DNA from: Lineolata rhizophorae
Taxonomy: Eukaryota > Ascomycota > Dothideomycetes > Lineolatales > Lineolataceae
Length of the DNA: 64,000 nt
Direction: 5' to 3'
Assembly: GCA_010093515.1 (NCBI GenBank)
Contig: MU001680.1
Location: 474,440 to 538,439 of the forward strand
Below are positions 3,544 to 46,067 of the stretch, piece after piece. The notes under the pieces are model-generated. The model had not been told where the DNA came from. It ran no database searches and saw only the letters and a program-made list of their open reading frames with translations. Within the stretch, counting starts at the first letter, position 1. Each line of letters starts with the position of its first letter. Made by a program: the position numbers and the translations under genes.

Positions 3544-5789
3544 TCACTCATCGTCCCAAACCTGGACCTTCTCGGCGTACTCGAGAATATTGGAGTGTAT
3601 CGACTCCGGAACGAGATTGCCCTTCCCACCAGCGACGCGCAAGATCAGATCGTTTAGGGAGGACCGGCCGAGAATGTCCACGTGATCGCCTGCAGTTATG
3701 TCAAAGGTCTCACGCATGCAGAGGAAGTGTGTGTCAGGCTGCCTACCAGTGTTGGGACCCCCACGGGGCGAAAACCTGTCTGGCTCGTGCGGCATCTCGT
3801 ACACCTTGATCGGTATGCCTGCAGGGTTATAGCGCTTAATCTTCCAGCCTTTCGAACACATGTAGCCTGCACTAAGCAGATTTACAGTCCCGTCGCCCTC
3901 GCCCATTACCACTCCGTGGTCTGCCTTGCCGTTAGTGTAGGTCGTGTCGATAGTCACATTGAGAGCCGAGAGAGGGTCCCGGTCCTCGCGATAATAGTAC
4001 GCCCGCTCGGTCGGCTTCCCGACGCCGTAGAAACAGTAAATCTTCAGGTTCGGAGCCAGCGGCAGTCTGGTCTCCAGAGGGTTGATCCATTTGCGAGGAA
4101 TCATCTGGTTGTCCTCCACCTCGTTGCGGGTCCGTGCAACTCCGTGCGAATAATTGCTCTTGACCATCTCTCGGTACCAAGGCTGAGCCTGGTCCATGAG
4201 AAAGTCCAGTGACTCATTCACCGTCAAGTTCTCCGGCGTCGACGATAAATTGCGCTTGTTGAAATTGAGGAACATTCCATAGGAGCCGTTCTGCCCGGGT
4301 CTGTCATCTGGCGCCCAGGTTCTATTTCCCCAAACGGCGTCTCCTCCTATCGGAAGCATGCTGGAAATACCAGGCATAGCTCTGAAAATCTCCGCTCGCT
4401 CTGAGCGACTGAGGAACTTCTCGAGGCCGTACACAGCGAAGGAATTCAATTGCGCTGTGTCCTTCATTTCACCGGACAGAACTGCGGGCAAGCCCTTCAG
4501 CGCTCCAAGCATACAACCACTGATGTTAATCCAGGAATCAACATGAGTGTCCACCCATACTGGTCCGCCACCGCCATAGCCTTCGGCTTCTACCCAATGA
4601 AAGAAGTAGTAGAGCACCTGCGATCCCATACTGTGGGAAAGGAGAACCACCTTTCTACCACTTAAACGGTGTGCTAGTTCGATATGCTCTTTTAGTCTGG
4701 AAAAGTAGTGGTCTCTAACCTCGTAATTAGAGTAGGACAGCCGCCAGTCATATGCCGCAGTAAATGAGTTTGTTGGGTCGTAACCAATCGTGGCAAGGTT
4801 CTCGAGGATCTTGTTCCAGATCCAGTAACCCGTGATGAAAAAATCGGTAGCGTCAAAACCTTGAGCGGCGCGCAGCTTGATGCCAGGGGGGTCGAGACCG
4901 GTCACTTTGTCAACCATAATATGCTTTTTCCACAACGCTTTATCTAGCACGAGGGCGCGCATCATGCTCCAACTTCCCCATAGCCGTTTTCTGAAATACT
5001 GTCGGGAGTCCTGTTCGGTGCCCCAGCTTTCTAAGCCCGTTGAGATAACGCCGGGAACCATGATAACGGGGTGCGTCGCCTCGACACCTTGTGATCGCGC
5101 ATGGAGTCCCACTGCGAAGGAATCGTAGTTCACCGCGTCGCGTTCGTGTTTCTAATCATTTGTAAGTATCCCTAGCCTTACGCGAATTGTCGACTTAGTT
5201 GCACGCGGGCACGGCAGATGATTGGAATCACTCTAGCGAAAGCTGATCGAGAAATAAAAGAAAGGTCGCTTTCCCATCTTCTAGATAAAATACGGACAAG
5301 GACAAGGACGCCATGCGCGCCTTGAGGGCATAATCGCAAACGACAAGAAGAATACCAGTGGCACAAACTGACAAATAGAAGCCCGCTCCATACCTGTAAG
5401 TCCTGCGCGTCCTTGACCAGCCCCGCCGGCAGCACGTCCAGGATGGAGTCCAGGTTCATCTCCGACAGGCTCGTCAGGTCCGGCACGTACTCGGAGTTGC
5501 CGGCGAAGAAGGCGGCCACTGCGAGCCCAAACAAGCCGCCGAGGCCGAAGATCCACACGCTGCGCCGCTTGCTCCCCTTGCCTCCTTTGCCCTTCTTGCC
5601 CAGTTCGCCCAGCTTGTCCAGCTTCGACTTGCTCACCACCTTGAAGCCCTCGCCGGCCTGCTCCTGGGCGCGCCGCGCCGCAGGCGGCAGTGGCGATGAC
5701 TCCCGTGACGAATCGTCTCGCGACGAGTCATCTGGCGATGGGGATGCGGCGCGCGGGTCGCCGGCCAGGCGCCGGCGGAGCGCGGACAT
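3544..5789 (-). CDS. lro1: Phospholipid:diacylglycerol acyltransferase (Lro1/PDAT)
   Basis: This is an LCAT-superfamily enzyme that moves an acyl chain from the sn-2 position of a phospholipid to diacylglycerol, making triacylglycerol at the ER/lipid droplet. Exon 1 is 5789..5394 and exon 2 is 5151..3544, giving 667 residues, the usual size for fungal Lro1. The start is the first in-frame ATG (MSALRRRLAGD). A basic cytosolic segment (KRRSVWIF) precedes one membrane span (GLGGLFGLAVAAFFAG) at about residues 98-117. The luminal catalytic part has the serine elbow LLSHSMGSQ, the Asp motif GEGDGTVNLLS and the His motif AGDHVDILGR, so the triad looks complete. The oxyanion-lid region VPGVISTGLESW is also present. 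Donor GTATGG at 5393 and acceptor TTAG at 5152 give ...DAQDLQ/KHERDAVNY. Identity is essentially certain; the exact acceptor is inferred. Confidence 0.95.
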
Positions 5790-35692: not shown

Positions 35693-36314
35693 GGCGGGCC
35701 CGTATGCGACGAGGTACTAGGTCGATACGCTCGAGGTGGTTGCCTGGGACGCGCTCCGCCAAGAGTCTGTGTGTCCTGGTGCGCTGCTCGGGTCGCCGTT
35801 GGTGGTATGACGTCGCTCGGGAGACCGACACCGCAGTAGTGGATAGACTTTGAGATGCGACCGGGCTTCTATAGGCTCGAGAGCCCCAAAGCGTGGAGGT
35901 GATGGGCGGGTTTGGTAAAAGGCGAAATTGGAGGCGGTTTGGTGAAGCTATTCGGCTGCGGAATAAATGCGCAACGGAAGAATTTAGAAATTTGTCGTAG
36001 TTGATATTCGAGCTCAAAGGGTCGAACCGCTCTCCGGTTGCCGCGGTGGTGAGAACTTGAGAGCCGAGGTTCATGGAAGATCCGACGAGACGCTAGGGAC
36101 GTTTGCCGAACCTTACGGCACCAGATCGCGTGAACTTTGATTGGCCCATTTTGGTGGGGAAGCCTGAGACCGAACCCCTACTCGCAGATGGAAACTGACA
36201 ATGCGCTTCAATGTGGTATTTTATGAAATCCACCACTGCAACTCCCCTAACAACAACAACACACGGCACTAACTCCCCTACACAAGGCCATGACTTCTGC
36301 TCTGTCTGATGACA
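35693..36314. promoter_or_regulatory. Upstream region of the cytochrome b5 gene
   Basis: GC-moderate, with a minus-strand open frame (35499-36074) in another phase that has no domain. Presumed promoter. Confidence 0.4.
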
Positions 36315-37612
36315 TGCAAAATTGCCAACGCGCTGCGGAATGAGGCCCTGCCAGCTCTGGAGCGTCTTACCCGGAACTCCTCTGCGCGAGAGCGCCCTCG
36401 GGCGGTTCGATCGTGACGAGCCTCCACCTTACATTGAGGACGACTGCGAGGGCATGCACATGCCTTTCCCAGCTCCAGGCCCTGCCAACAACTCCACGCC
36501 GGATAAGCTAATTCGTCTCCTCGAAGAGCCACTCGATGACGAGCAACTCTCCTAGGTGGCACACCACATGATAGATTTCGCCTACCCACCCGGAAAGCGC
36601 CATGACAAGGAGGCGGAGTTGGAAAGGCTCCGTGTCGAAGATTGGGCTTTCTACAAGGCTAGCAAAGATACGTGGGATTATTTTGTCCCGCGTAGGCTCG
36701 CGGTAAAGGCGCGGGCTGCGAGCGCCGAAACATCATCGTACGACATAATATCAAGCGGCGCTGGCAGAAGCTCGGCGTCTAGAATCCCGAATAGGGTTTC
36801 CCCGGTAGGGCGAATAAGCAGCCTAATAACTGCACGGATGAATAGAAGTAGCTATAGCAGCACGGCGACGCCGCTGCCGAATAGCGTCTCGCCTACACCG
36901 CACTTTGGCTACGCCAGGGCCTAGGCCGGACCGGGCACAGTCCCGTGCTCCCGTGCTCTTACCTCAGAGAGGATGCTTCAGCTTCCCAGGCGGATTCGTT
37001 TATCACCTCCCGCCCCTGGTTTATGTTTTCGCTCGAATATTGGGAGGAGTGGCGGAGATACTCGCGTATACCCGTGAAGATATAGCAGCTCTACGAGGGT
37101 TCCGTATTTAAGAATATTAGGTAACGCTAGGAGGAGAGGGGGGACTAGCAAGTAGATTAGCGAAATCAGCGCGGGGCGGATATCGTGATCGGGTAGAAGT
37201 GGCAGTATGAAAGCCCTAGCCCCGAACCCGAAGACCTTTCTGGTCTCGAGGACCTGGCTACCTTCGACCTCACTCCCTCCGACTTCACTCCCTCCAACCT
37301 CACTCCCTCCGAGGTCGACGCGCTCAAGGCGGTCCGTCCGCCGTCACCCCCTACATACGCTTCCGAGCCCCTACCGCCGCGACGGAACCGGGCTCTTCGG
37401 CCCAGTCCCTCCGTACTCCCCGCTGGCAGCACCAGAGGAGGCTATCGAGCAGCTACCGCGGCGACGTCGACGTTCACGCGAGCAGCCACCTGCCTAACCT
37501 CTCCGTCGCAGTGCTAGGATCGCCGCCATGGCCGCCAACCGCCCAGCGCCGTATCGTGTGTCCAAGCCTCCGGCTCGGCCTAGACACCAGTTAAGGAAAG
37601 ATCCCACTTAGT
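36315..37612 (+). pseudogene. Decayed copy of the AT-hook orphan gene at 43780-45300
   Basis: Its pieces line up in order with the whole gene 7 kb downstream: NALRNEALPAL with NALQNEALPVL, ALGRFDRDEPPPYI with ALRRFDRDEPPPYV, IKRRWQKLGV with IKRRWLKLGV, ASASQADSFITSRPWFMF with SSASQAESFILSRPWVIY, YESPSPEPEDL with HESPSPEPEDL, and TPSEVDAL in both. It is broken by a frame change near 36405, a TAG at 36553-36555, another frame change near 36730, and many stops (several TAG) between 36780 and 37200, where TpA is high as after RIP. The basic AT-hook tail is largely lost. A 15-bp unit is repeated three times at 37266-37310, encoding (D/N)(L/F)TPS, where the whole gene has one EFTPS. Confidence 0.82.
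37266..37310 (+). repeat. Three 15-bp tandem units in the decayed orphan copy
   Basis: Units GACCTCACTCCCTCC, GACTTCACTCCCTCC and AACCTCACTCCCTCC follow one another. They expand the single EFTPS unit of the intact paralogue. Confidence 0.88.
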
Positions 37613-38164
37613 AGCTTGAGTAAAACCTTCAGATTCTTCTCAAAAGTCTTGTACGTGTCCTACGTATATGTTGACTTGCTGTGGCACCTGAGAGTTGTCA
37701 AAATGTGAACAATAGGTGGGCCTGTTGTTGTATGTAGTCAGTGTGTCAAATATTGTATTTGGAGCGAAAGAAGAATACTCTCTAGCTTGCCTATCTTAGC
37801 GAACAAGGCCGTCTCGGTGATGCTTGCTTCAACCCGGCCTGTATTCCATGCTTGAGACTACTGTAAAGGCGGCAGTCTTATTGGCTGGATTGGTCCACGT
37901 GACCTCCTTTCCCTTGCCCCGCTCCGACACCCCCCCCCCCCCCCCCCGGGGGTCCCCCCGGCGGAAACGTCCGTTCCAGCTGAGCAAGATGACTGCGCTT
38001 TATGCCCTCGATTCGTTTCTAGACACCCCGTCATCATTCGCGGCCTACCAGCAATTTCAACATTCTACAACTACCATCTTGATCGCCACCTAAACCACGA
38101 CCGCTAATTGCGCCCAGCCAGTGTCCGCACTGCCAATGCTACATTTGCCAGTCTTGCGCTTTGG
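37613..38164. other. Intergenic with an 18-C homopolymer
   Basis: No gene. An 18-base C run at 37930-37947 is followed by five G, a T and six C. Convergent 3' flanks of the decayed copy and the DUF7924-type gene. Confidence 0.55.
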
Positions 38165-39873
38165 TCAATGCGACCGATGCGACTGTGATGAGGAGCGCTT
38201 CGCCGGTGGAAGCCTCGGCGAGACTTCTTCCACGGGGGTTTCACTCTCATCCCCATCTCCGGCCTCGACTAGTGTGCTGAGGATTTGGTTGGTTCCGGAG
38301 GCGAAGCTAAGCGTCGTGTTCGATAATTCGGCCTCTTCCTCATCACTGTCGGCATCCTCCTCTGTATCCTCGTCCGGATCCTCTATATCCTTTTCCCCTT
38401 CCACCTCGTCGTCGTTCACGTCTTCGTCATCACCTTCGTCTTCGATTGTTTGCCCCGCCCTCTCGTTCGCCCGCGCAATTGCGTCGTTCCTGTGCTTCTC
38501 TGTCAAGTCAACGGCATTCTTGAACACAGTAGCTCCATCCAGGAAGGTAGCGGCAGAATCAACCATGGAGAACGATCTCAGTCGATGCATGTAATACTCG
38601 GGCCTAGTCCCGGGGCCGTTTGGCTGAGCAACGGAGTGGCTATACATCACAAGGTGTCCGTTTTCGTAGGTTGACGAAATGGTATAGGCGTTATTGTCGT
38701 AGACGGGTTCGCTTTGCCCGTACGAACGAAGACTCTGCATGGCTCTCGCTCCTATCGCACCGTCATGGCAAACCTGCCGTTGAGCCACCACCGCTAGCCC
38801 ACGCGGCCCCTTCGTTTCCAGGAAGAAGTTCGGCACAGCGGGGAGAAGAGTATTGTTCAAAGGGATGATGTACTCGCTGAGCTCGTTGCGGACGTCCGGG
38901 TGGAGCTGATAATGCGATGCACCATAAAAGTAATCCGGTTTGGCCCGCGCAATATCACCCGTCATAGGATCGATGTTGTTGAACAAGGTGTTTTCTAAAG
39001 TGTTCCTTGAAGCGCCCATAGCTTCCAGCATTGCGGGAGGTACCTTGCTTTTTACCATGTCCTCGTTGGACGCATCCGTATCCGCATCCACGAATTTTTG
39101 CTACGCTTCCTCCGGGAATGTAGAAGGCGAAAGGGAACACCGAGGCTGCGCCAATTTTCTACGGGTCTCGTCCCAGTTTGGGGGTAATGGCGGCCGGTTG
39201 CCACTCGGACACTCAACGCCAAAGGGGATAATGCCACCGTCAAAGAGTTTCTGTCCATAGTTGGCGTCATTATGAATAGACGTTTTCTTGTCTTCTTTTT
39301 TTTGCCTATATTTTTCTCAGCTGTGGTTCTCTTGGAGGCTCCGGTCCTCGAAGCAGACGACGAGCCGCGGCTCCGAGACGAACTTGACCGGCTCGGGCTC
39401 ATATTGCGGTCAAGCGGGGCAGGTTCCGGGTACGAAGCAGCATCGTCAGCGCAGGCGCCATAAGTGAAGCACGCAGCACGTACGCCAACGAGATCGGACA
39501 AGTCGGGACCGCCGCCCCGAGCGAAACGCTTGACGTCCTGCAAATGCCCCGGCGCACAGTTGCGCAGAAAGTCGGCGGCGGACGCGGGCGGGAGGGGCGC
39601 GTTCTCGGACGGCGCGGCCAGGGCGTTCCGAGCAGTCGGGAGGCTGCGGGGACGGTGGCGCGGCGACCGCAGGAGACGATTCCTTCGGTCCAGCTCTCTC
39701 AGGGCGTGCTTGGTTAACCAGATCTTGGACAGGCTGTCCCAAAAGGCCGGCGTGTTGATGTATCCGCCGGTGTAAGGTCGGGACTTGTGCCTCTTGGGCC
39801 GCGATTGCGATGGCGGAGGGCGCTCCTCCGCACGCCGTCGCTTGCACGCATTGGAAGGCTGAGACTCGGGCAT
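38165..39873 (-). pseudogene. Disrupted DUF7924-type fungal protein gene
   Basis: The family (I believe catalogued as DUF7924) is multi-copy in filamentous fungi and has no known function. The N-terminal part from ATG 39873 reads YINTPAFWDSLSKIWLTKHALRELDRRN, then a Ser/Arg-rich linker. The C-terminal part (from 39091) is whole: ARAKPDYFYGASHYQLHPDV, NFFLETKGPRGLAVV, DGAIGARAMQSLRSYGQ, PVYDNNAYTISSTY, PEYYMHRLRSFSM, then a very acidic tail. Between them the conserved segment QKLFDGGIIPFG, PPLPPNWDE, AQPRCSLSPSTFPEE lies in a different frame from the N-terminus; the switch is at an 8-A run (39296-39303), and a TAG follows PEEA at 39103-39101. A consensus error could explain the run but not easily the stop, and no intron removes both because the conserved segment would be lost. 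It looks like a recent loss. Confidence 0.72.
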
Positions 39874-40165
39874 GTGGGAGCCATTGACGACAGGGTCACG
39901 GGGGGGAGCAAGCGAGTGTTACGAGCGGGAGAGAAAAAAGGACGTGCGGGCGAGTGTTAAGAGCGGAAAAGAGAAGGGCGTGCGGGCAAGTGTTAAGAGC
40001 GGGCGAAGAGCCGCGATTATATGCCCCGCCCTCGCTTTGTCTGGTCGGACTTTGTTTAGTGCCGGCGCCGAACAACACAAAGCGACAAACGAATGCAGCC
40101 TCAACCTCACCAAGTTCCCAACGCGACCGAATTGCCCCTACTCCCCCGCCCCCCCCTTACCAACC
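39874..40165. promoter_or_regulatory. Divergent promoter, DUF7924-type gene / membrane protein gene
   Basis: This 292-base spacer separates two divergent starts. It contains an imperfect tandem repeat at about 39910-40005 built around the words GAGTGTTA/AGTGTTAAGAGCGG and GGGCGTGCGGGC. Confidence 0.5.
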
Positions 40166-40739
40166 ATGGCATCCGAACTCCCAACCGTCCCGCGCGTCGT
40201 CTTTACCATTCTCGAGCCCGCATCTCTGTACGCCAACCCACCCCCCCTGCTAACCGCATGTCCATCCACCCAATGAAGCCTTAACGCGTCCGTGGCGAAA
40301 CAGCATCGCGGGCTTTCTAGCCCCGCTCGTCGCGCCGGCATACTTCGTCGACGCCCAGCTCCCGCGCACGCCCTTGCTCGCGCCCCCCGGCCACGTCCCG
40401 CACGCGCTGCTCCCCGTCGAGCACCTCCTCGCCCTCCAGCTCGCCAACCTGTACCTCCTGCTGTGCCTGCTCGGCCTGCTCGTCCTGCACACGACGCGCG
40501 AGCCCGCCGTCGTCAAGGCCTACTTGTGCGCCCTGTGGCTCGGAGATGTCGGGCACGTGGCCGTTTCCGCGTGGGCGGTGGGCTGGCAAGGGCTGCGCGC
40601 GTGGCGGGCCTGGACGGCCGCCATCTGGGGAAACGTCGGCGTCACCGTTCTGCTGTGGCTTCTTAGGACGGCGTATTTGGCGGGGCTGTTCGGCGGCGAG
40701 AAGGAGGAGGAGGAGAAGAAGAAGAAGAAGAGGTCGTGA
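40166..40739 (+). CDS. Four-helix membrane protein (DUF7704-like)
   Basis: Exons are 40166..40227 and 40304..40739, giving 165 residues. The start is MASELPTVPRVVFTILEPASL in a favourable context (ACCATGG). Splicing gives EPASL/IAGFLAPLVAPAYFV, the opening seen in a family of small fungal membrane proteins that I take to be DUF7704. Four hydrophobic segments follow at about residues 12-38, 62-82, 94-115 and 125-145 (LLALQLANLYLLLCLLGLLVL; AAIWGNVGVTVLLWLLRTAYLAGL). The C-terminus is a charged tail of Glu then Lys repeats. The donor is GTACGC and a TTAAC branch point precedes acceptor ACAG. No function is known. Confidence 0.82.
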
Positions 40740-41263
40740 GGAGTGGACGACGTGTGTCCAAATGACACACCCGTCGTTCAACAGGAAAGTTTAGTTAGCG
40801 CCACGCTAAGCAGGGGCTACTGCCACTAGCCATATTTGGAAACCAATCCCCGCACCTCACCTCCAAACACCTCGCCCCACTTGAATCCAACTCTACCGTG
40901 TTTGCACTAAGGAGACCGCTGGGAAACGAGTATTTGCATCCTTATCTAAGCCATAGCAACGGGCGAGGTCTTGTAATTAATCCTCAGAGAGAAGTCCATC
41001 CAGAACATAGCCTAGGTTTTCCGGCTGTTTATCAAGTGAAGATCGGTGATTGCGGAGGGACGCTTACCAAACCTGTCCTTGCGGGATTGTCTCTATTTTC
41101 TGATCCGCCCCCTCAGGACTTCGTTTGATTCCACAGGCTGTTGGCCGTCAGCAGCTCGCCTGGGCACACGAACTGGCGTAACGGCTTGGCATTCCATCAC
41201 TGGGCTCATGTTAGATCGCTGGCGCTTACGCGCATCTTCACACCCTTCCCAACTCCAATCAAC
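40740..41263. other. Intergenic
   Basis: No supported gene. A plus-strand frame at 41046-41456 overlaps the small spliced candidate in another phase and has no domain. Confidence 0.45.
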
Positions 41264-41478
41264 ATGTCCAACCTACGAGAGTCCGTGGCAGCGAAACGAT
41301 TGCGAAAGCACATTCCAAGACACAACAGTACGTCACCTTGCCTCGACGACATTGGAAGATCTAATACGTCTTGGCAGACCAAAGCGCTCAGAACGGAGAC
41401 CAGCTCGGGTGGAATCAACAGTTCGAGAGTCTCGATGTTCGCACAGGCCTTTCTGATAAGCTCTCGGTTGTTTTTTAA
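41264..41478 (+). CDS. Candidate small spliced gene, 54 residues (tentative)
   Basis: I do not recognise this. An ATG at 41264 (CAACATGTC) opens MSNLRESVAAKRLRKHIPRHN. A consensus donor GTACGT at 41328, a CTAAT branch-like site and acceptor GGCAG at 41377 define a 50-nt intron. The join continues NQSAQNGDQLGWNQQFESLD and ends VRTGLSDKLSVVF with TAA at 41476-41478. The basic first half and polar second half could be a small nuclear protein. The evidence is only the splice logic and plausible composition; it could be chance. Confidence 0.3.
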
Positions 41479-41625
41479 TCCATTAGATCCATTAGACCCT
41501 TTAGAGTAGAGTCTATCTATCCAGATACAAGACCTATCTACTTTCTACACTAGATATGCTAGACGGTAAGAATGGGGTATATAGTCAAGGAAAGACTTCG
41601 CGCCTGATTTTAACGATGCTTCTTC

Positions 41626-43461
41626 CTACTCCAGGAAGCTGCCAGGTATACGGAACTCCCTTTCCGGCTGTCCCTTCTCTAGTTCCTTGTTAGCCTGTCC
41701 CCGCGAGAGCTCCTTGTCAAGCTGCTCTTCGACCCGATGCCGTATTGCCGGCTTGGAAGATGGTGCCCTCGTCTTCACAATGCCGCCGTCCCGGCGTGCC
41801 CAGGTCGGGGGTGGGGTGTTGGCCGGCGACGCTAGTTCTTTCGACCGCCGACGGCGGTGGCGCGCGTCGTATACGATCAGGGGTGACGCCTTTGCAGCCC
41901 ATGGTGCCTGGGGAGCCGGAACGGGCGTCGGGGCGGCCCCAGAAGATGATGGATCCCCACCGCCCAGTACCGTCTGTTCACATTCAGCCGATGGGGGGGC
42001 CCAGATTGGCAGTACTGCTGCTCTCCGCGTCGTCAAGCCCCGGCCGTTGAAGTGGGCCACAAGCAGCTGAGCGGCCGAGGCCCGGTGGGCGGGATCCTCC
42101 CTCGCCATGTCGGCGAGCTCGGGAGCCAGGAGCACGGCGGCCCGGGCGGCCTGCAGGACGTCGTAGTAGTTCCTCGCATCTCTGGGCGGGAAGGTGAACT
42201 TGGAGTGCACGTCGATGATGGTAGCAAAAAGGGACCACACGTCCATCTTAGGGCTCTGGGGAAACCGGTCCACGTCGTAGAGCTCGGGCGCCTGGTAGAA
42301 GCCTGTGCCGCAGAAGGTCGTGGCATTTTGCTGGTGGTTGACAAGACCGAAGTCAGCCAGTTGAAAGCTGTATATCTCCGGGGCCGTGTTTTGCCAATAC
42401 AGGATGTTCTCGGGTTTAACGTCCCGGTGGCACAGTCCGCGATCGGCCAGGTAGTCGAGGGCGCAAAGCATCTGCTCGAGGACTTGCGAGCACAGCTTGT
42501 CTTCGGAGCACTGCCTCTCTCTGTTCTTGATGAGCAAGCTCAGATTCCCTCGGCGTAGCGGCATGAAGATCTCGGGATTGTTAGTGTCGAACTTGGCGAC
42601 GCCCAGACATTCGACAATGTTCTCCTGCTGGACGGTTAAACAACGACCGCAAAGTACCGCAAGAACGGCATTACGTACGTGTTTCAGCTGTTCAAGAGCT
42701 TTGATCTCCCTATGCAGCGCGGCTCGTGCATGCTCGACTTTGGTGTCGGGCAAGGTATCCAGCCTGACCACCTTCACGGCGAAGGGGTTACCAGACTCGA
42801 AGTCGACGGCTCGATAGACGGCGCCGAACGCGCCGGCGCCAATGAGGACGCGAGGCGCCCCTTCGGCCTCGCGAAATAGGACTTTTCTGGCCGTGTGCAG
42901 CCTAGTATTGTGCCACGAGTGGAGTTCCGAGTCGGTAAACTCGGTCGGGCGGTCGCGCGACCGGACGTTTTGAAGCCGCAGTAGCGAGTCCCGGTACCCC
43001 TCCACTGCCAGCTCTCTTAGACTTTCCACGGTCTTAGCGTCCCGCCATAGCAAGTTGAACATGTAGGACGTGACGCGGATTTTATAGCATATCCCGTAGA
43101 CGAGAACACAATCTTCACTGATTTGTTGGGCTCCCGGGGTACCCTCGTTAGAAACGGTGACCGTCGACGAGCGCTTCGACCGCACCGATAGCAGCACGAC
43201 GTGGGTCTCGGGGTGAATCTCGAATGCGACGTGGACCGCCGACACGTCGCGTCCGGGGAGGATCAGATCGGCATCTCGGCCAAGCCTGGTCATGACACGG
43301 CCCCTGGACATGGATGGAACGTGGAATCCGATTTCGAGTCCCGGTCCTTTAGCACTCGTCGACACGAAGTGGTTGTTATCGGGGTGAAGAAGCGCATTGT
43401 GGGTGGCTTGGTTCACTGGCACCAGATGGAAGAGAGTGCGCGCATTGACGTTCCCGGCCAT
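41626..43461 (-). CDS. FHA-domain serine/threonine protein kinase
   Basis: Exons are 43461..42679 and 42627..41626, giving 594 residues. The start is the first ATG (MAGNVNARTLFHLVP). An N-terminal FHA domain (about residues 25-140; MTRLGRDADLILPGRDVSAVHVAFEI, with the G-R and S-x-x-H signature) should bind phosphothreonine. The kinase domain (about 180-460) is complete: glycine loop IGAGAFGAVYRA, FAVKVVRL, HRDVKPENILYW, ADFGLVNH, GTGFYQAPEL, so it looks active. The arrangement is like Rad53/Cds1/Mek1 checkpoint kinases, but the tail is Pro/Ser/Arg-rich and unrelated. The 51-nt intron (42678..42628) is a multiple of three without an in-frame stop, so retention would insert 17 residues between LKH and QENIVECLG; the spliced form matches kinases better. 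It is head to head with the AT-hook orphan gene. Confidence 0.87.
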   Translation of the reverse strand: MAGNVNARTLFHLVPVNQATHNALLHPDNNHFVSTSAKGPGLEIGFHVPSMSRGRVMTRLGRDADLILPGRDVSAVHVAFEIHPETHVVLLSVRSKRSSTVTVSNEGTPGAQQISEDCVLVYGICYKIRVTSYMFNLLWRDAKTVESLRELAVEGYRDSLLRLQNVRSRDRPTEFTDSELHSWHNTRLHTARKVLFREAEGAPRVLIGAGAFGAVYRAVDFESGNPFAVKVVRLDTLPDTKVEHARAALHREIKALEQLKHVRNAVLAVLCGRCLTVQQENIVECLGVAKFDTNNPEIFMPLRRGNLSLLIKNRERQCSEDKLCSQVLEQMLCALDYLADRGLCHRDVKPENILYWQNTAPEIYSFQLADFGLVNHQQNATTFCGTGFYQAPELYDVDRFPQSPKMDVWSLFATIIDVHSKFTFPPRDARNYYDVLQAARAAVLLAPELADMAREDPAHRASAAQLLVAHFNGRGLTTRRAAVLPIWAPPSAECEQTVLGGGDPSSSGAAPTPVPAPQAPWAAKASPLIVYDARHRRRRSKELASPANTPPPTWARRDGGIVKTRAPSSKPAIRHRVEEQLDKELSRGQANKELEKGQPEREFRIPGSFLE

Positions 43462-43779
43462 GGCGAGAAGTGAAGCCCGAGAGCCCAGCCAAGACGCATC
43501 CCTCCGCGGGAAGACACATATATACGCGGCGGGACCGGCCAAGAATGCTGCATTTCTGCCTCGCCGACGCCCGGCCGACGCCCAGCGTGCGACTCATGTA
43601 CGAGGCAGCCAGTAGTGTTCCAGCTGACATGTACTGGCCCGCGTTGTGCACGCGCTTGGTTGGCGGTCGGTGGTTGGCTGCCTGCTGTGCCAGTTCTTCG
43701 TTTCTACCCAGCCCACCAAGCTTCGCAATCCACCTACACCCCGAAGTACACCACAGCAACGACGACGACGACGACGACA
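43462..43779. promoter_or_regulatory. Shared divergent promoter, FHA-kinase / AT-hook orphan
   Basis: Only 318 bases separate the two start codons, so both promoters overlap. A TATATA lies at 43519-43524, 58 bases upstream of the kinase ATG. A (GAC)n run at 43761-43778 abuts the orphan's ATG. Confidence 0.5.
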
Positions 43780-45300
43780 ATGCCGCCCTTGTTCGACCAC
43801 GAGCAGATCAATAATGCGCTGCAAAACGAAGCCTTGCCAGTCCTGGCGCAATTCGCCGACAATTCCAGCCTGCGCGGCCGCGCCCTCCGCCGCTTCGATC
43901 GCGACGAGCCACCGCCCTACGTATCCTCGACCGATGACGACGAGGAGTACGTCCCGTCGCTGGGCTTTGGCGGCGACGCCCTGTTGGACCAGTTCAAGGA
44001 TCTCATGAACTCTCCTCTCGATGGCGACGAACGAACGAGCGTTGTGCATGCCCTACACTCCTCCGGCAAAGTGTATGACCCCGGAGAACGCTACCGCAAA
44101 GAGGCGCGCATGGAAGAAGAACGAGTGAGGAGCTTCCGCCGGAGGCTCCGTCCCTCCAGCGCCGAGGCAGAGAAATTCCTCGACTTTAAAGGGCGGGCGG
44201 GCGAAGAGCGGCTGAATATCTTAGTCCGGCGCAACATCAAGCGCCGCTGGCTGAAGCTCGGCGTCTGGAATCCTCAATGGGGGATTCCCAACCGGCGGAA
44301 CAATGCACAGCCCAACGACGACACGTCTACATGGAGGTGGAGGTGGCAGCACGGCAGCTCTGCTGCCGAGTGGACTATTTCTCCTACTCCCATTGCTACG
44401 AATCTGCACCATCCTATCATTCGCGCCGTACTCCTGCGCCAAGGCCTCCACCGCGATGAGTATACTCCAGTGCCTCCGCGTTCCCATCTCAGGGATGACT
44501 CATCGGCTTCTCAAGCCGAATCCTTCATCCTCTCACGGCCCTGGGTCATATACTTCATCGAGTTGCTCGAGGAGCGTGAGAGGTTCTTTCGCATTCCCTG
44601 GCAAAAAAGCCGGTTCTATAGAGAGCCCCTGGGGAAGCACGTAATCGATCAGTGGAAGCTTAGGGGGGACTGGAGGAAGGACTGGGTTGATCCAGACGAT
44701 GGAGGATTTGCTCCCGGGTGGAAGTGGCGGCATGAGAGCCCATCTCCGGAGCCTGAAGACCTGACGCCGCTCAACACCATGGATATGGAGTTCACCCCCT
44801 CCGAGGTGGATGCGCTTGACGCCATCCCCCCGCCATCTCCTCCGCCTCGTCCGCGCTCACCCTATTACTTCCCGCCGGGCGATCCACGTCGTCCTCGCGG
44901 GACCGGAATCTTCGCTAGCCCTCCTCCTCCACCTAATATCCCACCGGCACCGGCAAACCCGACGGACGAGCTGGAGGGACCCGAGCCCAGTGAGCAGCTT
45001 CCATTACCACGCCAGCGCCGACGCCGGCAACGAGGCGAGAACCTCCTCCAGCCACCACGGCGCAGTGCCAGGATCGCGGCTATGAAGGCCAACCCGCAGC
45101 AGCAGCAGCAAGAAAGACGCTCGACCGCTCGGCCTATTCCCGCGCGTCCACCACCCGCAGACAAGCCCAAGAAGGGTCGTCCGAAGAAAATGGACAGGTC
45201 GGCCGTATCCAAGGCGCGGCCAGCTCAGCCTGGGCGAGGAACGACAGCGGCCGGCAAGCGGCCGAGAGGCCGCCCGCGGAAGGACGCAGCTCGACAGTAA
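43780..45300 (+). CDS. Orphan protein with two C-terminal AT-hooks
   Basis: One exon, 506 residues, starting at ATG 43780 (MPPLFDHEQINNALQNEALP). I know similar unnamed proteins in filamentous fungi but no function. Residues 1-50 carry RGRALRRFDRDEPPPY. The middle (about 110-330) is rich in Trp and Arg and looks like a compact domain: VRRNIKRRWLKLGVWNPQWG, PNDDTSTWRWRWQ, SQAESFILSRPWVIYFIELL, RFFRIPWQKSRFYREP. SPEPEDL and EFTPSEVDAL lead into a Pro-rich linker. The tail is basic with AT-hook cores KKGRPKK and RPRGRPRK, which bind the minor groove of AT-rich DNA, so nuclear DNA association is inferred. A decayed copy lies at 36315-37612. Reading upstream of 43780 is open but lacks an ATG. Confidence 0.75.
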   Translation: MPPLFDHEQINNALQNEALPVLAQFADNSSLRGRALRRFDRDEPPPYVSSTDDDEEYVPSLGFGGDALLDQFKDLMNSPLDGDERTSVVHALHSSGKVYDPGERYRKEARMEEERVRSFRRRLRPSSAEAEKFLDFKGRAGEERLNILVRRNIKRRWLKLGVWNPQWGIPNRRNNAQPNDDTSTWRWRWQHGSSAAEWTISPTPIATNLHHPIIRAVLLRQGLHRDEYTPVPPRSHLRDDSSASQAESFILSRPWVIYFIELLEERERFFRIPWQKSRFYREPLGKHVIDQWKLRGDWRKDWVDPDDGGFAPGWKWRHESPSPEPEDLTPLNTMDMEFTPSEVDALDAIPPPSPPPRPRSPYYFPPGDPRRPRGTGIFASPPPPPNIPPAPANPTDELEGPEPSEQLPLPRQRRRRQRGENLLQPPRRSARIAAMKANPQQQQQERRSTARPIPARPPPADKPKKGRPKKMDRSAVSKARPAQPGRGTTAAGKRPRGRPRKDAARQ

Positions 45301-46067
45301 GCCTCAGCCGCCGGGGTCCAAAAGCACCAATCCATCCCTACGATATCAGGATGAAGTCGACGCATCAACGCAACTCCTTGCATAGCTCCTCGTAAAACAG
45401 CGGACCCAGCGGCTTCGGAAAGTGAGGGTTTGCGCTACTCGGAACATGTCCTAATAAAGACGAGATCTCTCATATAGCATTTGCCGCTTAATGCCCTTGA
45501 GGCCTTAGATGCCTTGTTAAGCCTCATAGCCTAGCTACCGCAAATGTGGCCTCTCATCGTCAAAACGCAAGACTGGCAAATCTGGAAGTGGCAGTGGCAG
45601 TGGCAGTGCAGCTACAGACGCTGGCCGGGGTAATCAGTTGGTCACGGCTTGGGTAGTGGCTAAAATAAAAGCGTCCGTGTTTTTCTTTTACGTTAGTTTG
45701 CGGTCATATGTGACAGAAGTTCTCCTCCAAGTGTGCAGAGCGATTGGAAATTTGGTAATCTTGCATACTTTTTCCTAGGGCTTCACTACTCCCAATCCTA
45801 GCGCCTAACTTCGAAATATCGGTACAGCAGCCGAATTGTGTGTGCCAATAGAGGGCACCTGCCATTGTACACAAAAGAGAAGTTGTCATACTCAACAGAG
45901 GATCTCAACGAGAATGTGCAGATCTAAAACCAGAAGACGGAAGGAAAGAATAATTAGAAGCGCCTCGAAACTCCACCGCCGAATAATCAACCTATGCTAT
46001 ATATTTACATCATACCTTCCGCCCTAGTGGGGCGTGAAGGCTCAAAGCTTGCGCGGAAACTTTGACT
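45301..46067. other. Convergent intergenic spacer
   Basis: No gene. A hexamer GGCAGT is repeated about four times near 45584-45608. Otherwise AT-moderate 3' flanks of two convergent genes. Confidence 0.55.

Follow-up and report, generated by a model that had tools for sequence, protein, structure and literature searches.

An intact gene for a tryptophan-rich AT-hook protein and a broken homologue 7 kb away raise the question of whether the two record the recent duplication of a gene in an expanding family, or the remains of something older. Both lie in a 64,000-nucleotide stretch of the Lineolata rhizophorae genome (contig MU001680.1; G000:C11:474440-538439), hereafter called the window, which spans 474-538 kb of contig C11 (1.10 Mb) in a genome of 31 Mb and 48 contigs. 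The original prediction took the two loci for members of a lineage-specific, multi-copy family exposed to repeat-induced point mutation (RIP). Our comparative analyses confirmed the observation and partly supported the interpretation, and we found that a more interesting object than the broken copy is the pair formed by the intact gene and a protein kinase gene that stands head-to-head with it (41626-45300). This pair looks like an old unit, because a third, broken copy of the AT-hook gene, on contig C23, is likewise located head-to-head with a relic of the same kinase. The features that carry this comparison are the following.

43780..45300, + strand: intact AT-hook/Trp-rich gene, 506 codons in a single open frame
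36252..37769, + strand: broken homologue (36315-37612 in the original prediction), given at the extent alignable with the C23 copy (C23:4022-5524)
about G000:C23:4172-5486, - strand: third copy, also broken, closest to the window's broken copy
41626..43464, - strand: divergent gene for a Ser/Thr protein kinase (Pkinase E 1.3e-31), 612 codons counted from the ATG at 43464
43465..43779, no strand: candidate shared promoter, the 315 bp between the coordinates of the divergent start codons
L015:5946-6633 on C23, + strand: kinase relic, divergent from and adjoining the AT-hook relic at 4172-5486 (-)

Two dead sister copies and a kinase relic

A genome-wide protein search with the AT-hook protein at E<=10, in which match counts are lower bounds, returned 10 matches. 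Seven of them belonged to one or other of three loci, namely the intact gene, the broken copy and C23:4202-5480. The remaining matches covered only the C-terminal half of the query at E values from 1.3 to 9.7 and were not accepted as homologues. Three loci in 31 Mb, one of them intact, do not bear out the predicted multi-copy family, and the same holds for a subtelomeric place, given the position of the window within C11 and the absence of exact TTAGGG x4 arrays from C11 and C23. Such arrays were observed on C1, C4 and C43, and a lone match on C15; the C23 copy has a contig end some 4 kb away, and that end bears no array.

The intact gene and the broken copy are true homologues. Their protein match reached E 4.7e-43 with 50% identity over residues 140-373 and contained 11 TAG and one TAA codons, and an additional N-terminal piece of the broken copy matched the intact protein at E 3.7e-10. 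The segments FDRDEPPPY, IKRRWxKLGV and ESPSPEPEDL are colinear between the two loci, as had been noticed, and the loci also align as DNA, in ungapped blocks of 93 nt and 52 nt at 75% identity and at 69% over about 170 nt (E 1.6e-10). Comparisons with contig C23 place this relationship in a different light. The broken copy and the C23 copy are 73% identical over 1579 alignment columns, in an alignment that reaches about 60 bp before 36315 and about 160 bp beyond 37612, whereas either broken copy shares with the intact gene only short blocks at 69-75%. In a three-way alignment within the coding frame, nine in-frame indels relative to the intact gene, as well as an in-frame stop where the intact gene encodes W167, were common to both broken copies. 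Because of the 73% alignment, the common indels and the common stop, we take the broken copy and the C23 copy to be sister copies, to which the intact gene is the outgroup.

We estimated dN and dS by the method of Nei and Gojobori (NG86), following the frame of the intact gene along the alignment, which makes the values rough: dN 0.45 and dS 1.19 for the intact gene and the C23 copy (446 codons used, 4 skipped for stops), dN 0.50 and dS 1.63 for the intact gene and the broken copy (428 used, 15 skipped), and dN 0.23 and dS 0.30 for the two broken copies (415 used, 16 skipped). A recent tandem duplication of the intact gene, considered as the source of the broken copy, was rejected on the C23 comparison, with its closer relative, dS values and indels. 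Duplication with subsequent decay, as predicted, is supported, but not in the simple form of a decayed duplicate of the intact gene, since the broken copy belongs to a sister lineage with the C23 copy and the dS between intact gene and C23 copy is about 1.2.

Changes polarised on the three branches, counted at codon positions 1/2/3, were 98/103/171 for the intact gene, 47/45/41 for the broken copy and 31/26/21 for the C23 copy. These counts indicate purifying selection on the intact branch, the long branch to the ancestor of the broken copies having evolved as a protein-coding gene, and they indicate no selection in either broken lineage since their split, both having drifted. The W167 stop common to both suggests that their ancestor was already dead, a parallel change at W167 being the alternative.

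The C23 copy is accompanied by the relic of a kinase gene, and the geometry of the two relics is the same as that of the two genes in the window. The kinase relic matches the window kinase as DNA at 69% over 194 nt (E 4e-15) and at 74% over 102 nt (E 1e-9), and as protein at 64% over query residues 368-413; the sequence FRIPGSF is legible at the C-terminus of both. Its first open reading frame (ORF) matches the Pkinase model at E 4.4e-07, with a score of 30.0 bits that lies under the curated cut-off of 31.7. By arithmetic from the 53 kinase matches of the genome, query included, chance would place about 0.002 kinase matches so oriented at a distance of 1 kb or less. The relic showed no match to the N-terminal half of the kinase, and the N-terminal 205 residues had no other match in the genome at E<=1. 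C23 thus holds a dead sister copy of the kinase/AT-hook arrangement, in which both genes have decayed, and the broken copy at 36.3 kb is a second, solitary dead copy of the same sister lineage. Just past the kinase relic, L015:7446-7769 gave a weak match, short of the curated cut-off (E 0.0058), to the inactive domain of M16 peptidases, and looks like another degraded gene.

A possible functional pair

What the living pair does can be approached from the two products. The 506-residue AT-hook protein contains 14 Trp, 66 Arg and 68 Pro, and four segments of its gene are of particular relevance.

44188..44370, + strand: Trp-rich repeat 1, aa 137-197, from local alignment with repeat 2
44605..44751, + strand: Trp-rich repeat 2, aa 276-324, from local alignment with repeat 1
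45172..45189, + strand: AT-hook motif KGRPKK, aa 465-470, by motif match
45265..45282, + strand: AT-hook motif RGRPRK, aa 496-501, by motif match

An AT-hook consists of a GRP core with basic residues on either side, and proteins of this class bind AT-rich DNA in its minor groove. Both KGRPKK and RGRPRK have this core and these flanks, where one copy is enough, so that the two AT-hooks and the Trp/Arg-rich composition of the original prediction were recovered, and DNA binding is a candidate function of the protein on the strength of the motif match. The local alignment of the two Trp-rich repeats, whose segments were chosen by eye before scoring, scored 60, compared with 33 +/- 6.6 for shuffles of repeat 2, none of 500 reaching 60. 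As predicted, the protein falls in no known family, neither Pfam nor the PDB sequences yielding a match at E<=1. Similar Trp-rich proteins presumably exist as hypothetical proteins in Sordariomycetes, and the label of orphan may not stand. A search for relatives of the AT-hook protein confirmed no homologue in prokaryotic (26 pattern stretches) or viral (2 and 3) contig collections, which is uninformative on fungi.

The kinase is legible as such, with glycine loop, HRD, DFG and APE motifs in its translation. Against the PDB, the whole protein matched chains of CaMK and PLK3 best, and RAD53 was lower among the best 60 of 1593 matches. Its N-terminal region looks FHA-like by eye only, from the motif GR..DLIL..SxxH and from a run of strands in a model with a predicted local distance difference test (pLDDT) of 31. 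It would thereby resemble the FHA-domain kinases of the Rad53/Chk2/Dun1 type, with which it shares the Ser/Thr kinase domain and, by eye, these N-terminal motifs, but from which it differs in giving no FHA domain among Pfam matches at E<=10 or among PDB matches of its N-terminus. It also resembles the expanded accessory kinases of fungi (PMC6001611) in having a degraded relative elsewhere in the genome, and differs from them in adjoining an AT-hook gene.

We consider it possible, at a chance somewhat short of even, that the kinase and AT-hook genes have long worked as a pair and that their products cooperate in the nucleus. Both genes would be transcribed from the 315-bp region between them; AT-rich DNA or chromatin would be the target of the AT-hook tail, and the double Trp-rich region might serve as a protein-binding module; the kinase could then phosphorylate its AT-hook partner, or be recruited by it, in the nucleus. 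Selection to keep the genes together would explain that they are still side by side in both descendants of the old duplication. Should the pairing hold, a protein that is uncharacterised and probably nuclear would acquire a definite biochemical partner and, with it, a substrate relation open to testing.

Several observations weigh against this proposal. The argument for joint function draws on a single genome and on two instances in it, and the solitary broken copy retains no kinase remains in the window (tblastn, E<=10), where only scattered weak matches were seen; the AT-hook gene can therefore be copied, or persist, without the kinase. Inside the 315-bp region there was no blastn match to C23. 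An AlphaFold model of the Trp-rich core (256 aa, 4 alignment rows) reached a pLDDT of 37 and established no fold, and the FHA reading of the kinase fared no better: no FHA domain was present among the Pfam matches at E<=10, a PDB search with the N-terminal 205 residues brought up 7 weak matches, the best at E 0.0088, to designed beta-trefoils and none to an FHA protein, and the AlphaFold model of the N-terminus (225 aa, single sequence), at a pLDDT of 31, did not establish it.

The same facts can be read as those of functionally unlinked neighbours, in which one duplication copied a segment holding both genes, the AT-hook gene having a chromatin role of its own. A single segmental duplication carries both genes without any functional link, and the window's broken copy, which stands without a kinase, is consistent with this. 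We regard this reading as unlikely, since the duplication is old (dS about 1.2), and yet the neighbour is adjacent in both descendants; unlinked neighbours would generally be expected to separate over such time. Returning to the functional pair, a stronger version of it would be an undescribed two-gene fungal module, composed of a kinase with an FHA-like N-terminus and a dedicated Trp-rich AT-hook partner, co-expressed from the common region, kept or lost together, and acting as a kinase-to-chromatin switch or in genome conflict; we hold this version to be doubtful. Among the titles and abstract openings listed by searches of open-licence PubMed Central (PMC) text, none described such a pair or family.

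RIP-type decay in one dead copy

The broken copy is TpA-rich, as had been stated, with a TpA/ApT ratio of 1.20, the ratio being 0.53 in the intact gene, 0.63 in the C23 copy and 0.79 across the window. We tested for RIP by counting C>T changes at CpA on either strand relative to other C contexts, polarised against the relatives. In the broken copy, 19 of 59 CpA sites had changed to TpA, as against 23 of 277 other C sites (p 6e-6), and the changes were concentrated in one block.

36740..37240, + strand: RIP-type decay block inside the broken copy, CpA>TpA 15/28 versus 3/104 at other C (p 1e-9, for limits that were set after the stops were seen)

The aligned remainder of the broken copy outside this block had no CpA bias (4/31 versus 20/173, p 0.77). 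Among the 14 TGG codons of the intact gene that aligned without gaps, the broken copy has 10 TAG, three TGG and one GTG, and at the 10 TAG codons the C23 copy has TGG at eight, TAG at one and a gap at one. No RIP bias was observed in the C23 copy (CpA 4/42 versus 12/241, p 0.27) or on the intact branch (CpA 11/82 versus 67/453, p 0.87). The RIP-like bias is confined to about 500 bp of the window's broken copy and absent from the C23 copy, a RIP-type mutator having struck the solitary copy over that length. The three loci provide a clean case of a fungal gene lineage dying, with one ancestor, two dead copies and a living relative, and of the two dead copies one has RIP-type damage and the other does not.

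Elsewhere in the genome, 12 of 15 reverse-transcriptase matches were in open frames of at least 800 codons with no stop within the match, and two of these copies, both of a long interspersed nuclear element (LINE), were 99.87% identical over 3747 nt, with an open frame of 1403 codons. Since the C23 copy is unbiased and the young LINE copies are intact, present exposure to RIP is unsupported; of the predicted RIP exposure, the CpA-to-TpA bias in the broken copy is supported. The genome also has a second methylase ORF, which we take from its appearance to be DIM-2-like. A RID-like methyltransferase ORF was observed at L065:604-2415 (G000:C21) and carries the EQT triad, which, according to PMC6709928, is the mark of Masc1/Rid enzymes, and the same source places a conserved PCQ triad in motif IV. 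This ORF and the TTAGGG arrays are both in keeping with a filamentous ascomycete. Motif IV of the RID-like ORF has PVCK in place of PCQ; together with the intact young LINEs, this fits, without proving, a weakened RIP in this genome. Compared with RIP-mutated gene duplicates of filamentous ascomycetes, the likeness lies in clustered CpA>TpA changes, TGG>TAG stops and a RID-like methyltransferase ORF in the genome, and the difference in that only one of two dead copies was hit, over about 500 bp, with near-identical LINEs left intact.

The original model of a lineage-specific, multi-copy accessory family held in check by RIP, with the kinase as an accidental neighbour, can draw on the existence of broken copies, on the bias in one of them and on the EQT-bearing and second methylase ORFs. 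It is nevertheless unlikely, given that the search found just three loci, that the C23 copy has no such bias, that the LINE copies are nearly identical with their frame open, and that the kinase relic on C23 repeats the arrangement of the window.

The inverted repeat and the DUF7924 genes

An inverted repeat, 38128-38163 / 45561-45596, brackets the DUF7924, DUF7704, kinase and AT-hook genes. That its arms are the ends of an old 7,469-bp mobile element carrying these four genes is very unlikely: the arms match at 31/36 positions and bracket the pair, their 20-mer pattern occurs at these two places only in the genome (up to 2 mismatches), and their local score of 47 exceeds the best of 60 flank shuffles (32), but no target-site duplication was seen by eye, the ends have no further copy in the genome, no transposase was recognised (no family-specific transposase search was made), and C23 carries none of the 37 DUF7924 matches (DUF7704 was not looked for there), so that the pair on C23 does not represent a duplicate of the entire unit.

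The DUF7924 gene of the window (38165-39873, -) consists of two overlapping frames, through a frameshift or an intron, and only the 3' ORF matches the Pfam model. Among the 37 DUF7924 matches genome-wide, 13 have internal stops and nine, at about seven places, are on contig C31. PMC13412767 counts DUF7924 among the gene families with the greatest divergence in Neurospora crassa. After the 53 kinase and 37 DUF7924 matches had been merged by hand to 50 and 29 places, and with the window's own excluded, we observed five DUF7924-kinase pairs within 10 kb (on C31, C6, C19 and C5; two of the five share one DUF7924), compared with 0.94 expected under uniform placement, a proximity that clumping of accessory genes may explain.

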